Assembly (NCBI GenBank): GCA_002773355.1
Contig: PFBL01000001.1
Location: 1-59,645, forward strand
Source: Candidatus Kaiserbacteria bacterium CG10_big_fil_rev_8_21_14_0_10_56_12
Lineage (GTDB): Bacteria; Patescibacteriota; Minisyncoccia; Phycocordibacterales; Phycocordibacteraceae
Direction: 5' to 3'
DNA: 59,645 bases
The position numbers and the translations under genes are program-made. Shown here piece after piece: positions 13,116 through 38,191 of this stretch; within the stretch, counting starts at the first letter, position 1, and every line of letters starts with the position of its first letter. Below the pieces are notes generated by a model that was not told the DNA's origin, searched no databases, and saw nothing but the letters and a program-made list of their open reading frames with translations.

Positions 13116-13178
13116 GTTTGTTGCCACAAGGGCACTTCTTGTTCGCCAATTCTCGTCGCTCATAAGAGCACAATGTCG

Positions 13179-13184
13179 TATACT
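13179..13184 (+). promoter_or_regulatory. -10 box of the lytic transglycosylase gene
   Basis: TATACT ends six bases before ATG 13191. The in-frame ATG at 13173 lies upstream of this -10 and is therefore an unlikely start. Confidence 0.6.
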
Positions 13185-13190
13185 GGGCGG

Positions 13191-14555
13191 ATGCCCCGTC
13201 GAGTATCTATTCTAGTTGTGCCGGTCTTTCTCATATTTTTGGGCACCTTTGCAGTGTCATATCAGCCGACTCGCGCACAAGAGCTGACGCCACAAGCGCG
13301 CGCCGCTCTCCAAGCACAGTATGACGAATTACTGAAAGAAATCGCGGCCCAACAGGAGATTATCAAACAGACGCAGGCACAGAAAAATACCCTGCAAGGC
13401 GATGTGACTGCACTCAACGCGAAGATCAGGGCGGCACAAGCCCAGATCGATGCCAAAAATATCGCGATAAAGACGTTGTCCTCGCAGATTGCGCATAAGA
13501 ACGTGGTTATCACGCAACTCACGAGCCGCATCGAGAGCGGTAAAGAATCGCTCGCGGCTATCTTGCGTCAAACGCAAATGCTCGATGACTACTCTGTCGT
13601 GAGTGTCGCCATCGGTGCACAAAACGTGTCTGCCTTCTTCCGCGATCTCGACGCCTTTACCTCGCTTCAGACAGACTTGCACAGCCTCTTTACTGACATC
13701 AACCATGCCAAGGCCCAGACCGAGACCGAGAAGGCGAACCTCGCGGTGAAGCAGACTCAAACACTCGATGCGAAATATGTCGTCGAGACCCAGAAGCAGA
13801 AAATTGCAAGCAACAAAACGCAAAAGCAGCAACTCCTGGCGATCACGACCAACAAAGAGGCAGAATACCAAAAGGTGCTTGCCGACCGGCAGGCCAAGGC
13901 GGCGGCAATACGCGCAGCATTGTTCCCGCTCCGTGACACAGGAGCCATCAATGAGGGCGAAGCGATCCAGTACGCGCTCACCGCGTCGAAGAAGACAGGG
14001 GTGCGCGCGGCACTCGTGCTCGCGGTGCTGTCGCAGGAGTCAGACCTGGGGCGCAACGTTGGTAACTGTTACGTCACCAATCTGGATACCGGTGATGGTG
14101 TAGGTAAGAATACCGGGACACCATTTAAGGGCGTCATGAAGGCGCCGCGCGATACCGTCCCGTTCAAGAAAATTACCGACGCGCTGGGGAAGGACTGGTC
14201 GACCACGCCAGTCTCATGTCCTCAGACGGGTGGCTATGGTGGCGCGATGGGCCCTACGCAATTCATCCCCTCCACGTGGATGCTCTATGAAGGACGCATT
14301 AAGAGCGCGCTCGGCGCGAGCGCTACCAACCCTTGGAATGCAGAGCAGGCTATTATGGCCGCGGCACTCTACCTGAGTGACGCTGGCGCTGTGAGCAGTA
14401 GTCCGACCGCTGAGCGCAATGCCGCCTGCAAGTACTTCTCGGGGCACTCGTGTCCATCTAGTGGATGGATAGCCACGTATGGCAAGCAGGTCATGGCCAA
14501 GGCAGACGGGCCCGATGGGTTCCAGCAACATATCGACTTCTTGGCGAACAACTAA
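13191..14555 (+). CDS. Secreted coiled-coil lytic transglycosylase (MltB/SLT-like)
   Basis: 454 residues. A signal peptide (VSILVVPVFLIFLGTFAV, cleaved near residue 26) is followed by a long coiled coil (about 28-240) rich in Gln/Lys/Ala, then a lytic transglycosylase domain. The catalytic Glu is E283 in SQESDLGRNVG, and GGYGGAMGPTQF (347-358) is the MltB-type substrate groove motif. It should cleave peptidoglycan outside the membrane. The coiled coil resembles EnvC/PcsB-type regulators, so it may act in cell separation or surface assembly. The start at 13191 fits both the promoter spacing and the signal peptide. Confidence 0.88.
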   Translation: MPRRVSILVVPVFLIFLGTFAVSYQPTRAQELTPQARAALQAQYDELLKEIAAQQEIIKQTQAQKNTLQGDVTALNAKIRAAQAQIDAKNIAIKTLSSQIAHKNVVITQLTSRIESGKESLAAILRQTQMLDDYSVVSVAIGAQNVSAFFRDLDAFTSLQTDLHSLFTDINHAKAQTETEKANLAVKQTQTLDAKYVVETQKQKIASNKTQKQQLLAITTNKEAEYQKVLADRQAKAAAIRAALFPLRDTGAINEGEAIQYALTASKKTGVRAALVLAVLSQESDLGRNVGNCYVTNLDTGDGVGKNTGTPFKGVMKAPRDTVPFKKITDALGKDWSTTPVSCPQTGGYGGAMGPTQFIPSTWMLYEGRIKSALGASATNPWNAEQAIMAAALYLSDAGAVSSSPTAERNAACKYFSGHSCPSSGWIATYGKQVMAKADGPDGFQQHIDFLANN

Positions 14556-19746: not shown

Positions 19747-19822
19747 GCCGCCTTAGCTCAGTTGGTAGAGCAACACTTTTGTAAAGTGAAGGTCCCCAGT
19801 TCGAATCTGGGAGGCGGCTCCA
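19747..19822 (+). tRNA. tRNA-Thr (anticodon TGT)
   Basis: Full cloverleaf: acceptor GCCGCCT pairs with AGGCGGC, D arm GCTC/GAGC, anticodon loop TTTGTAA with TGT at 19780-19782, T arm CCCAG/CTGGG around TTCGAAT, and an encoded CCA end. Decodes ACA and probably other ACN codons. Confidence 0.96.
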
Positions 19823-20513: not shown

Positions 20514-21749
20514 TCATTTCCACGCCTGGTTTTTACCCAGGGCCACATGAGCTGTGGATCGGACAAGCCACAAGGGCGCGATGAGGCCGTAGAGTAGATA
20601 GGAGGCCATGCTTCGCCCGAGGTGGAAGGGCGTTTGCGATAGGTGCCGACCGTACGCGACGAGTGCCAGCGATGCTACCATGGCAATGAATCCTAGCAAA
20701 GCGAACACGCTGGTAGGGAAATAAAACCAGTCGAAGCCGGCATAGCGCGGTGCGAGGGCGTAGGATAGGGGCACTCCCAAACGCACCTCGATACCGCGCA
20801 CTATCTGGAGGGTGAGCTGAGAGATGGTCAGGAGGAACAGGAGCGCCGTGCTCACTACCGCAGTGAGCGCGAAGGGGAGTATGAGCATGCCAAGCACCCC
20901 ATGGTCTCGATTAAGGACGAGTGAGCGATACTCGCCCAGCGTGTTACGCAAAAAGCCGTTCGTCCAGCGGGTACGCTGTTTAATCAGCTTGAGTACGGTG
21001 TGGGGCGCCCTCGTGTAGACACGCGCGCGCGGTGCATTCTCGATCTCATACCCGGCCTTCTGCATCCGCAGGGCCATCTCCATGTCTTCGGTCTGGTGAC
21101 CGTAGCGGAAACCGCCGAGAGCCTCGACAACCGAGCGGCGATAAAACGAGAATGGTCCGGGCGTCACATACAAGCCGTTTATCGAAGCCATCGCGTGCCG
21201 CATCGTAATGCCGAAGCTGTATTCCGCATTCTGCATATGCTCCACGATATTGTGTGGTTGGTGTATCGACATTGCGGCCGTAACGGCGGCGACACGATGG
21301 CTCGCAAAACAAGGGATGATCTCGTTCAGGGCGTCAGGATCGACAAACGAATCGGCGTCGAGACAGCCGATAAATTCGGCCTCAGTAGCCGCGATGCCGA
21401 TGTTGACTGCCTTGTGCTTGCCGCGCTCTGGCGCGTGCAAGACCGTGACGTTCGGGTGTGCTTGGTAGCGTGCCATGATGGCCGGCGTGTCATCGGTCGA
21501 GGCGTTGTCCACCAGTATAATCTCGAGCTTGTCTGCAGGGTAGTTGAGCTTCAGGAGGGAGTCCGTGGTGGCGGCAATCGTCTCGGCCTCATTGCGGCAT
21601 GGCACCACTACGGCCACAAGGGGCGTCGCGGAGCCCGGCTTGCGGGCACGCGCATCGCGCGCGGGCTTTGAGAGGAGGGTCACCAGGACGAACGACTCGA
21701 AGAAGATCGCGATGAAGATAAAGGGGCACGCTAGTGCGTCGACACTCAT
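20514..21749 (-). CDS. Processive glycosyltransferase, family GT2
   Basis: 411 residues. An N-terminal transmembrane helix (about 8-27) is followed by a GT-A domain with VVVPCRNEAETI, VDNASTDD, the DxD at D131-A-D133, the acidic E221-D222 and the QxxRW motif Q258-RTR-W262. Several C-terminal transmembrane helices follow. The QxxRW motif and topology are those of processive enzymes such as poly-N-acetylglucosamine, hyaluronan or cellulose synthases. It would make and export a surface polysaccharide. The sugar is not readable from sequence. Confidence 0.9.
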   Translation of the reverse strand: MSVDALACPFIFIAIFFESFVLVTLLSKPARDARARKPGSATPLVAVVVPCRNEAETIAATTDSLLKLNYPADKLEIILVDNASTDDTPAIMARYQAHPNVTVLHAPERGKHKAVNIGIAATEAEFIGCLDADSFVDPDALNEIIPCFASHRVAAVTAAMSIHQPHNIVEHMQNAEYSFGITMRHAMASINGLYVTPGPFSFYRRSVVEALGGFRYGHQTEDMEMALRMQKAGYEIENAPRARVYTRAPHTVLKLIKQRTRWTNGFLRNTLGEYRSLVLNRDHGVLGMLILPFALTAVVSTALLFLLTISQLTLQIVRGIEVRLGVPLSYALAPRYAGFDWFYFPTSVFALLGFIAMVASLALVAYGRHLSQTPFHLGRSMASYLLYGLIAPLWLVRSTAHVALGKNQAWK

Positions 21750-34415: not shown

Positions 34416-37400
34416 TTAAATAGGCTTGAGCTCTTCAATGGCGAGGGTCGCCTCGCCATTACGTATGGACACTTTTGCCTTCAGTAGTAAACAGGCCCCA
34501 GGGACAATCGCGGCGACATGCTCCTTAAACGTTTTTGGGAATACGACCGATTCTATGCTGTCGGTCTGGTCTTCGACGGTGACAAAGGCCATCTTCTCGC
34601 CGCTCTTGGTGAGTATGGGGCGCACAATGGATACTAGCACCGGCAAAATGACCAGCGTGCCGTTGGTGGGCGTTTTTTTAATCTGTGCGATGGTGAGGCG
34701 CGCCTTCGCGAGCAGATCTTTATGGGCATCGAGTGGGTGGCCGCTCACGTAGATGCCCAAGAGCTCCTTCTCCCACGCCAGTTTGTCAGCGAGGGACATG
34801 GCAGTACCCTCGGGCAGGTGGAGTTCGGGCGGCTTGGTCAGATCACCAAACAGCGAATCCTGGGGCGCGCTTGCGGTCGCCTCTCGATGATAGGCGAGAA
34901 GCGCCTCGATATTTTCGAGTAGTGTGTCGCGGCCCGCGTGTGCGGGGGCAAGCGAGTCAAGGGCACCTGCTTTGACGAGCGACTCAAGCGACTTGCGGTT
35001 GAGATTTTTTGATGCGACTCGTGAGAGGAAGTCAGATAGAGAGTGGTAGGAGCCGTGTGCGGTGCGCTCGGTCATAATCGCTTCGGCGATGCCCTCGCCG
35101 AAGTTCTTTATCGAGGAGAGGCCGAATCGGATCGCGTCGCGGTGCTCGCCAACGACGGTAAAGTCGGTGCCGCTCTCGTTCACATCTGGCGGCAAGACGT
35201 CGATACCGAGCCGTTTGGCCTCTCCCACAAAGACAGAAATCTGTTCGGTGTCACCAGAGTCGGCGGTGAGAAGCGCGGCGAGATATTCGACCGGATAATT
35301 CGCTTTGAGGTAGCTCGTTTGATAGGCAACCCGCCCATACGAGGCCGAGTGCGCTTTGTTGAAACCGTAGGCCGCAAACGGTTCGATCCACGCCCAGACC
35401 TCCTGCGCCTTCTTGCGCGGCCACGTGGAGTGCTCGACACAGCCATCGATGAACTTCTCCTTCTGCTTTTGCATTTCGGCAGGGATCTTCTTGCCCACGG
35501 CCTTGCGGAACTTGTCGACCTCACCCCATGAGTATCCGGCAAATTCGTGCGCCATGATCAAGAGATCGTCTTGGTAGACGAGAATACCGTAGGTTTGTTT
35601 GAGGATCGGCTCCATAGCGGGGTCGAGATAGGTGATAAGACTCGGGTTGTGCTTGCGCTCAATATATTGCGGGATAAATTGCATCGGCCCGGGGCGATAC
35701 AGCGCAACCATGGCGTTGATGTCGTGAATCGTTGTTGGCCGCAGGTCCTTGAGCCAGCGGGTCATGCCCGTGCCGTTCAGCTGGAAGGTGCCCTCAGTGT
35801 CGCCGCGCGCGAGCATCGCGAATGTTTTGGGGTCGTCGAGGGGTATCGCCTCGATATCAATGTCGATACCGCGCGTTTCTTTGACGCGAGCAACGGCGTC
35901 AGCGAGGATGGTGAGGTTTTTGATACCAAGAAAGTCAAACTTCGTGAGTCCCACCCCGTCTTCACCGACAGAGTACATATCGTATTGCGTGATGAGCTTG
36001 CCGGTGCCTTTAGGGTCGGGCTGGATAGGGGTCCACTCGACTAACGGCGTCGGTGACACGACCACGCCGGCCGCGTGCACGCCCACGTGGCGCACGCACC
36101 CTTCGATGCGCTGTGCGAGGTCGAGAATCTCCTTCGTATCGTCGTCTTCGTTGTAGAGCGATTTGAGATCAGGCTCGAGCTTCATTGCGTTCTCGATGGT
36201 CATCGGGAAGCCCTGAGAGCCCATAGGGATGAGTTTGGCGATACGGTCGCCAGTGTTGTAAGAATGCCCGAGTGCGCGGGCGACATCGCGTATCGCCGCG
36301 CGCGCCATCATGGTACCGAAGGTGCCAATCTGCGCCACGTGGTCGTGGCCATATTTTTCTCGGGCATATTCGATCACCTCATCGCGACGATTGTCGGCGA
36401 AGTCCATGTCGATGTCTGGGGCCGAGGGGCGCTCAGGGTTCAAGAAGCGCTCGAAGGGGATCTTGTACTCAAGGGGGTCAATCTTGGTGATTTGAAGTAG
36501 GTACGTGGTCATCGAGCCTGCTACCGAGCCACGAATATTGGTATAAATGTTTTTTTCTCTCGCGAAGCGCACCAGGTCTTCCACCACGAGGAAGTATGCC
36601 GCGTACCCTTTGAAGGCAATAATGCCAAGCTCGTACTCGAGACGCTCGAGCACGTCTTGGCGCCCCTCGAGGCCGCGCACCTTGAGTCCTGCCAGACAGA
36701 GCTCGCGCAAGAGTTCGTCAGCTGTCTTCCCAGGCGGGAGCGCAAAATTGGGGAAGACAAACTTGCCGAGCGTGAGCTCTACGTTACAGCGGTCTGCGAT
36801 GCGGCGCGTGTTGTCGACAGCCTCGGGCGTATCTTTGAAGAGAGCGAGCGCCTTCTTCTCGGAGATGAACGAGAAATCCTCCTCCTCGTTCTTACCGCGC
36901 TCGCCTTGCTGGATGCGGCGCAGGATCTCGGTTGCGCCGCGATCGCTCGGATCGAGGTAGTAGACGTCGTGTTGCGCAACGAGCGGTGTGTCGGTCTCGT
37001 GTGCAAGCTCGATGTTCTTCTGCATGAGCGCCTCATGTCCTGTAACCTTTGGGTGGTGCGAGACTTCGAGGAAGAGGTTCTCCTTGCCGAAGATGTCGGT
37101 GAACTCGGCGAGACTTGCGGCGGCCCCGTTGTGGTCACCGGCACGCAGTAGCTGGGCAACGTCGCCCGCGAAGGAGGGGAGTATCGCGATAATGCCGGCG
37201 GCGTGTGCGCGGAGGAGCTCCTTGTCGAGACGTGGTCGCTCGAAGAACCCCTCTGTCCACGAGGCCGTCACGAGGGCAAGGAGGTTTCGATATCCGGTAA
37301 CATTTTCGGCGAGGAGAACGAGGCGTGAACGCTTCGCGTCCAGGTCGTGGTCCTTATCATGCCGCGAGCGTGGGGCAAGGTAGGCGTCGACACCGAGGAT

Positions 37401-37589
37401 CGGCTTAATCTCGGCCTTCGTGGCCGCCTGATAGAAATCGATCACACCGTGCATGTTGCCCGCATCGGTGAGCGCCACCGCATCCATGCCATCTTTCTTA
37501 ACCTTTTCGACGAGCTCGTCGACCTTCGGAAGCGCCTGGAGGAAGCTGTAGTGGCTGTGCGTATGGAGATGGATAAAGCGCGATGCCAT
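34416..37589 (-). CDS. dnaE: DNA polymerase III alpha subunit
   Basis: 1057 residues. An N-terminal PHP domain (FIHLHTHSHYSFLQA) is followed by the polymerase core with PDIDMDFADNRR near residues 390-400 carrying the catalytic Asp pair, the palm/finger YRPGPMQFIP and QDDLLIMAHEFAGYS region, and the tandem HhH. A C-terminal OB fold (from about 960) comes last. Replicative polymerase. No intein is seen. It shares a 20-base intergenic promoter with rnhB on the other strand. Confidence 0.97.
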   Translation of the reverse strand: MASRFIHLHTHSHYSFLQALPKVDELVEKVKKDGMDAVALTDAGNMHGVIDFYQAATKAEIKPILGVDAYLAPRSRHDKDHDLDAKRSRLVLLAENVTGYRNLLALVTASWTEGFFERPRLDKELLRAHAAGIIAILPSFAGDVAQLLRAGDHNGAAASLAEFTDIFGKENLFLEVSHHPKVTGHEALMQKNIELAHETDTPLVAQHDVYYLDPSDRGATEILRRIQQGERGKNEEEDFSFISEKKALALFKDTPEAVDNTRRIADRCNVELTLGKFVFPNFALPPGKTADELLRELCLAGLKVRGLEGRQDVLERLEYELGIIAFKGYAAYFLVVEDLVRFAREKNIYTNIRGSVAGSMTTYLLQITKIDPLEYKIPFERFLNPERPSAPDIDMDFADNRRDEVIEYAREKYGHDHVAQIGTFGTMMARAAIRDVARALGHSYNTGDRIAKLIPMGSQGFPMTIENAMKLEPDLKSLYNEDDDTKEILDLAQRIEGCVRHVGVHAAGVVVSPTPLVEWTPIQPDPKGTGKLITQYDMYSVGEDGVGLTKFDFLGIKNLTILADAVARVKETRGIDIDIEAIPLDDPKTFAMLARGDTEGTFQLNGTGMTRWLKDLRPTTIHDINAMVALYRPGPMQFIPQYIERKHNPSLITYLDPAMEPILKQTYGILVYQDDLLIMAHEFAGYSWGEVDKFRKAVGKKIPAEMQKQKEKFIDGCVEHSTWPRKKAQEVWAWIEPFAAYGFNKAHSASYGRVAYQTSYLKANYPVEYLAALLTADSGDTEQISVFVGEAKRLGIDVLPPDVNESGTDFTVVGEHRDAIRFGLSSIKNFGEGIAEAIMTERTAHGSYHSLSDFLSRVASKNLNRKSLESLVKAGALDSLAPAHAGRDTLLENIEALLAYHREATASAPQDSLFGDLTKPPELHLPEGTAMSLADKLAWEKELLGIYVSGHPLDAHKDLLAKARLTIAQIKKTPTNGTLVILPVLVSIVRPILTKSGEKMAFVTVEDQTDSIESVVFPKTFKEHVAAIVPGACLLLKAKVSIRNGEATLAIEELKPI

Positions 37590-37609
37590 AGGACTAGTAT
37601 ACTTTCTAC
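37590..37609. promoter_or_regulatory. Symmetric bidirectional promoter, dnaE / rnhB
   Basis: The whole gap is six bases, the palindrome AGTATACT (37596-37603), six bases. On each strand the palindrome supplies TATACT exactly six bases before the start codon. The two genes therefore appear to share one -10 element, with both mRNAs leaderless. Confidence 0.7.
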
Positions 37610-38191
37610 ATGCGATTCATGCTTGGGGTTGATGAGGCGGGGCGCGGACCTCTCGCAGGGCCAGTTGCGGTTGGCGTAGTGGCGGTGCCAGTACACTTTG
37701 AAGTCGCGCGCGAATTTCCTGGTGTGGCAGATTCCAAAAAGCTAAGTGAGAAGAAACGCGAGACCCTTTTCGCCCTGCTTGAGTCACGAGTAGCGCAGGG
37801 CGATGTGCGCTATGTGGTCGAGCTCGAGAGCAATGAGACGATCGACAGCGAGGGGATCGTGGTCGCCGTGCATTGTGCGCTCGATCGGGGAGTACGGGCG
37901 CTCGCGCCGGACGCGAGCGCTGTAGAAGTATTGCTCGACGGTGCACTCAAAGCTCCCGCGGAGTATGCGCAAGAGACAATGATTGGAGGAGACGCTCTTG
38001 TACCACTCATCTCGCTCGCGTCGATTGCGGCCAAGGTCGTCCGCGACCGGCGCATGTATGCGCTCGCAGAGCAGTACCAAGAATATGGGTTCGATGCGCA
38101 TAAGGGCTACGGCACCAAGGCACACTACCAAGTCCTGCAAGAGCACGGCCAGTGCGCTCTCCATCGCAAGACATTCCTGCACGAACGGTGA
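37610..38191 (+). CDS. rnhB: Ribonuclease HII
   Basis: 193 residues. The active-site DE is D8-E9 in GVDEAGRGPLAGP; DSKKLSEKKR, VLLDGAL and SIAAKVVRDR follow as in the family, with a complete C-terminus (HRKTF). It removes RNA primers and misincorporated ribonucleotides. Its pairing with dnaE through a common promoter fits a joint role in replication. Confidence 0.95.
   Translation: MRFMLGVDEAGRGPLAGPVAVGVVAVPVHFEVAREFPGVADSKKLSEKKRETLFALLESRVAQGDVRYVVELESNETIDSEGIVVAVHCALDRGVRALAPDASAVEVLLDGALKAPAEYAQETMIGGDALVPLISLASIAAKVVRDRRMYALAEQYQEYGFDAHKGYGTKAHYQVLQEHGQCALHRKTFLHER

Follow-up and report, generated by a model that had tools for sequence, protein, structure and literature searches.

Between the divergent DNA-replication genes dnaE and rnhB of Candidatus Kaiserbacteria bacterium CG10_big_fil_rev_8_21_14_0_10_56_12 we identified a 20-bp gap that, judged from its sequence and from the corresponding gaps of relatives, is very probably one −10-symmetric bidirectional promoter serving two leaderless genes. 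The gap lies in contig PFBL01000001.1, the 59,645 nucleotides of which were analysed over their full length (the window) and which is one contig of a 632-kb genome that is 97% complete. From the recurrence of the same arrangement at other gene pairs we further conclude that the −10-symmetric design, with its predicted leaderless products, is used repeatedly across this genus of ultra-small bacteria.

Sequence and geometry of the dnaE/rnhB gap

The gap (window positions 37590-37609) separates dnaE on the minus strand from rnhB on the plus strand and reads AGGACTAGTATACTTTCTAC, which can be divided into AGGACT, the core AGTATACT and TTCTAC. The core is self-complementary, and exactly 6 nt separate TATACT from the ATG of dnaE on one strand and from that of rnhB on the other. 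A sequence-only reading of the window had described a palindrome with TATACT exactly six bases from each start codon, and this description proved exact at 37596-37603. Between each −10 hexamer and its ATG there are only the bases AGTCCT (dnaE side) or TTCTAC (rnhB side), both free of a Shine-Dalgarno sequence, as is asked of leaderless genes, and the TANNNT box by which such genes are recognised stands upstream on both sides with a spacer of 6. The core occurs once in the window against an expectation of 0.28, so that the 8-mer alone is not significant there; it becomes significant through its conservation in all 30 compact relatives described below. A scan for consensus −35/−10 promoters found nothing at the gap, and the viral homologues of DnaE were merely 30-38% identical and uninformative.

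In the mechanism that we propose, AGTATACT would offer a TATACT −10 hexamer on each strand, the self-complementary TATA being common to the two. At any one time RNA polymerase would occupy this shared −10 in only one of two orientations, and in both cases it would melt the same few base pairs. Transcription would begin at or within 1-2 bases of the A of the ATG, 7 nt past each hexamer, which places the predicted mRNA starts at or next to 37589 for dnaE and at or next to 37610 for rnhB. By geometry alone, AGTATACT would place the start sites 21 bp apart, and the 10-mer form of the core, AGTATATACT, would place them 23 bp apart. The product would be either a leaderless dnaE mRNA or a leaderless rnhB mRNA, each presumably translated as such, and the two orientations would be mutually exclusive.

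Conservation in compact and split gene pairs

A search for RnhB in 106 genomes of the family yielded 98 matches, for which the upstream DNA was retrieved and both gene starts were placed by tblastn. Thirty genomes with a gap of 17-24 bp and a confirmed rnhB ATG formed the compact set. Overlapping −10 hexamers were kept in all of them: the dnaE box was found 6-8 nt from the ATG in 30/30 (26 TATACT and 4 TATAAT), and TATACT was found 6-7 nt from the rnhB ATG in 29/30, with the core present as AGTATACT, AGTATATACT or ATTATACT. Among eight distinct gap sequences of 20 bp, the core, the one base preceding it and the TTCT following it were invariant; the remaining bases of the dnaE-side spacer varied, and so did most synonymous sites of dnaE and rnhB. 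The sequence-only reading had proposed to ask whether a 6-8-6 spacing is kept while the flanks drift. In the compact pairs each −10 box stayed at its distance from the ATG, and the dnaE flank and the synonymous sites drifted; the spacing was, however, not rigidly 6-8-6, since the dnaE spacer ranged over 6-8 nt, and the TTCT on the rnhB side was conserved. The same reading had named loss of the palindrome in relatives that keep the gene pair as a check. The exact palindrome was indeed gone in four genomes with the ATTATACT core (L089, L090, L093 and L098), yet each strand retained a −10, TATACT one way and TATAAT the other. A broken palindrome with a −10 on each strand is a better fit to a double promoter than to an operator.

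In 24 genomes the two genes were separated by 25-200 bp. TANNNT was present 6-7 nt before rnhB in 19/24 of these and 6-8 nt before dnaE in 21/24. Where rnhB was distant from dnaE, or dnaE was out of reach, TANNNT stood at 6-7 nt in 13/17, chiefly as TATGCT, TATGAT or TATTCT. TATA was found in 29/29 rnhB boxes of compact pairs vs 11/32 of the others (Fisher 1e-8, which is descriptive only, as the sequences are related). Sharing is, on this comparison, common but not indispensable, and what appears to persist is a −10 close before each ATG. Nor is sharing a fixed arrangement: it can be lost, inserts have split the gap many times, and most genes then keep a −10 of their own. We also noticed that the gaps of L063, L076, L079, L081, L088 and L152 (33-181 bp) contain inverted repeats with −10 boxes at their ends, AGTATACC...GGTATACT. 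It looks as if a hairpin insert had duplicated the shared box, giving each gene its own promoter.

Leaderless signature in the genome

Genome-wide figures were obtained from a 200-kb sample of this genome (the window and L154-L162). TANNNT preceded first ATGs with a spacer of 6 in 14.5% and with a spacer of 7 in 10.1%, compared to 0.5% and 1.2% for internal ATGs; because the start calls were crude, these percentages are probably underestimates. When a choice among the first ATGs was allowed, 49/159 genes were leaderless-like, and Shine-Dalgarno-like tetramers preceded 19/159 of the sampled starts. The 49 leaderless-like boxes favoured TATA(C/A)T, had TGn upstream in 22/49 and showed no excess of a −35 element over shuffled sequences.

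TGn was present in 21/32 unshared rnhB promoters and in 0/29 shared sites. The latter count is dictated by the geometry and carries no independent weight: at 21 bp, the base pair that supplies T(−7) to one promoter supplies A(−14) to the other, which makes TGn impossible on either side. The near-consensus TATACT on both strands may stand in for the missing elements.

Two further compact divergent pairs of the window, with starts at 21749 (−)/21785 (+) and 47115 (−)/47163 (+), carry an unshared TANNNT for each gene, 6-7 nt from the ATG.

Recurrence of the shared core in the genus

The pattern CAT-N6-8-ANTATANT-N6-8-ATG was found at 203 sites in 93 genomes of the genus vs 23 sites for the reversed control, and per genome it was above the control in 71 and below it in 4. 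With spacers of 12-14 the same pattern gave 17 sites. Other start-site geometries were also in excess, with a weaker contrast (425 vs 263 for 18 bp, 551 vs 295 for 23 bp). The sequence-only reading had held that a sole promoter for two leaderless genes would be an unusually compact case; the case is not singular, as the same architecture occurs about twice per genome in the genus. In this genome four shared sites were found: dnaE/rnhB, recG with a gene for a peptidoglycan-binding-domain protein, rmuC/yqeY, and a VTT-domain protein with a TraG/HerA-like ATPase. Those in relatives include serS with a DprA-domain protein and a PolB-type exonuclease with a PLD-domain protein. Since these other pairs had been found by pattern, a replicate was run by protein search with YqeY, and it recovered the shared core in 19/30 yqeY/rmuC loci. 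In L212, L175 and L190, the genes for thymidylate synthase and thymidylate kinase, a functionally coupled pair, are arranged back to back around a common AGTATACT.

The strict AGTATACT form was rare in a sample of the phylum (29/287 genomes, three of the 29 from this genus). Genome-wide, AGTATACT itself was hardly enriched, with 10 sites vs 7 for the reversed sequence; 3/10 lay between two start codons and most of the others near one.

Features of the window

The features of the gap and of its flanking genes are listed in Table 1. With regard to transfer RNAs (tRNAs), the tRNA-Thr at 19747-19822 was supported. A tRNA-Arg called by ARAGORN at 13662-13753 (−), inside the open reading frame (ORF) 13173-14555, was without Rfam support and is probably false.

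Table 1. Elements of the dnaE/rnhB gap and the two genes that flank it (window positions)
Feature	Positions	Strand	Basis
Putative shared palindromic core AGTATACT, readable as a TATACT −10 hexamer on both strands, with TATA common to the two	37596..37603	both	sequence and relatives
Predicted rnhB −10 hexamer TATACT, 6 nt from ATG	37598..37603	+	sequence and relatives
Predicted dnaE −10 hexamer TATACT, 6 nt from ATG	37596..37601	−	sequence and relatives
rnhB-side spacer TTCTAC, 6 bases from −10 to ATG; TTCT conserved in relatives with a 20-bp gap	37604..37609	+	relatives
dnaE-side spacer, 6 bases, AGTCCT on the − strand; varies among relatives	37590..37595	−	relatives
dnaE, DNA polymerase III alpha, 1057 aa, starts with ATG	34416..37589	−	ORF and NCBIfam
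rnhB, ribonuclease HII, 193 aa, starts with ATG	37610..38191	+	ORF and NCBIfam

Alternative explanations

Several observations weigh against a shared bidirectional promoter with leaderless products. The gene starts rest on ORF rules and homology, not on experiment. A start distance of 21 bp is absent from the common distances of bidirectional promoters in E. coli (18, 10 and 23 bp; PMC12825309), where small variations are allowed. One of the compact relatives (L135) has TATACG in place of TATACT on the rnhB side. Compact and split forms do not separate in the DnaE tree but are mixed together, with about 15 label changes, at least 7 of them forced by well-supported branches and many forks being weak. 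Such repeated loss or gain of the shared state means that sharing itself is not strictly needed.

A different possibility is that the gap holds two one-way leaderless promoters that abut but function separately. Their overlap would then be only a by-product of genome compaction, each box would be under selection for its own gene, the genes would be uncoupled and the palindrome would follow from the self-complementary TATA. We regard this as quite possible. The mixture of compact and split states on the tree, where split genes mostly retain their own −10, makes coupling dispensable, and the basal firing of E. coli bidirectional promoters was reported to be too low for competition between polymerases (PMC12825309), so that even in a shared promoter the exclusion may have little effect. 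This explanation, however, leads to identical expectations for DNA and transcripts and differs only over coupling, and the shared cores at many gene pairs show that, at the least, the arrangement arises readily and is retained.

Alternatively, only one direction could fire, the other gene being transcribed from further upstream and the second −10 being an accident of symmetry. The two sides are indeed unequal, as the bases after the −10 are conserved on the rnhB side and not on the dnaE side, and at many bacterial bidirectional promoters one of the two transcripts is an mRNA and the other is non-coding (PMC10268837). The dnaE-side −10 was nevertheless kept in every compact relative and stayed with dnaE in most split ones, and the genes lie head to head, with only each other's coding DNA upstream. 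We therefore consider one-way firing improbable.

A perfect palindrome of 8 or 10 bp also resembles a half or whole operator site, and AGTATACT could be bound by a repressor or another DNA-binding protein, or be a methylation site, with the real promoters elsewhere, for example within both genes. The four relatives with a broken palindrome and a −10 on each strand speak against this, and separated genes each keep a one-way TANNNT at the same distance, not the palindrome. The drift of synonymous sites in both flanking genes leaves no conserved promoter visible inside dnaE or rnhB. On the genome-wide frequency of AGTATACT, which is not enriched, and on the palindrome-breaking relatives, we rejected this explanation as very improbable. 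A coincidental palindrome in a short AT-rich gap, for which only the expectation of 0.28 copies of the 8-mer in the window could be adduced, was ruled out by the comparison across relatives, with conservation in every compact pair and the recurrence in the genus, and its probability is negligible.

Relation to known promoters and significance

The proposed dnaE/rnhB promoter combines features of two known systems. In −10-symmetric bidirectional promoters (Warman, Grainger et al., Nat Microbiol 2021, as cited in PMC12825309 and PMC10268837), a pseudo-symmetric −10 engages RNA polymerase in two orientations; the start distances common in E. coli are a preference, not a requirement (PMC12825309). 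The site described here resembles these promoters, as the citing papers present them, in having one symmetric −10 readable on both strands, with predicted divergent starts a short distance apart: 7-25 bp in that class, and 21 bp predicted from geometry here. It differs from the common 18-bp arrangement in that the boxes overlap by TATA and the predicted starts are 21 bp apart (23 bp for the 10-mer), and from the described promoters in general in that both products would be leaderless mRNAs and in that the site is conserved between orthologous genes across the genus. Leaderless genes, for their part, are marked by a TANNNT box that begins roughly 12 bp before the start codon (Zheng et al. 2011, PMC3160421; Mycobacterium, PMC3898074; Deinococcus-Thermus, PMC12340547). 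Like them, dnaE and rnhB have a −10-like box directly before the ATG, and transcription and translation would start together.

The word "leaderless" is absent from PMC12825309 and PMC10268837, and the words "bidirectional", "divergent" and "palindrome" are absent from PMC3160421 and PMC12340547. In the open-access library searched, we found no paper joining −10 symmetry with leaderless expression of two protein genes, and none on leaderless genes in Patescibacteria.

The proposed arrangement brings −10-symmetric bidirectional promoters and leaderless genes, both already known, together in a minimal unit of divergent expression. That selection maintains this unit is indicated by the comparison of about 90 genomes. 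A trade-off is suggested, in which sharing excludes an extended −10 and the shared boxes are nearer to consensus. It seems rather probable that in this genome-reduced genus of Patescibacteria symmetric −10 palindromes, with neither −35 nor TGn, are a standard module that sets leaderless pairs back to back, several per genome and often at genes of replication, repair or nucleotide metabolism. Some 26 bp would then hold the promoter together with the 5ʹ ends and start codons of the two genes, and these genes would compete for one polymerase site. The approximately 200 natural sites lend themselves to asking whether selection holds bidirectional promoters with two mRNA products in place, in what way a single −10 is shared by two polymerases, and whether compression of this kind is promoted by genome reduction.
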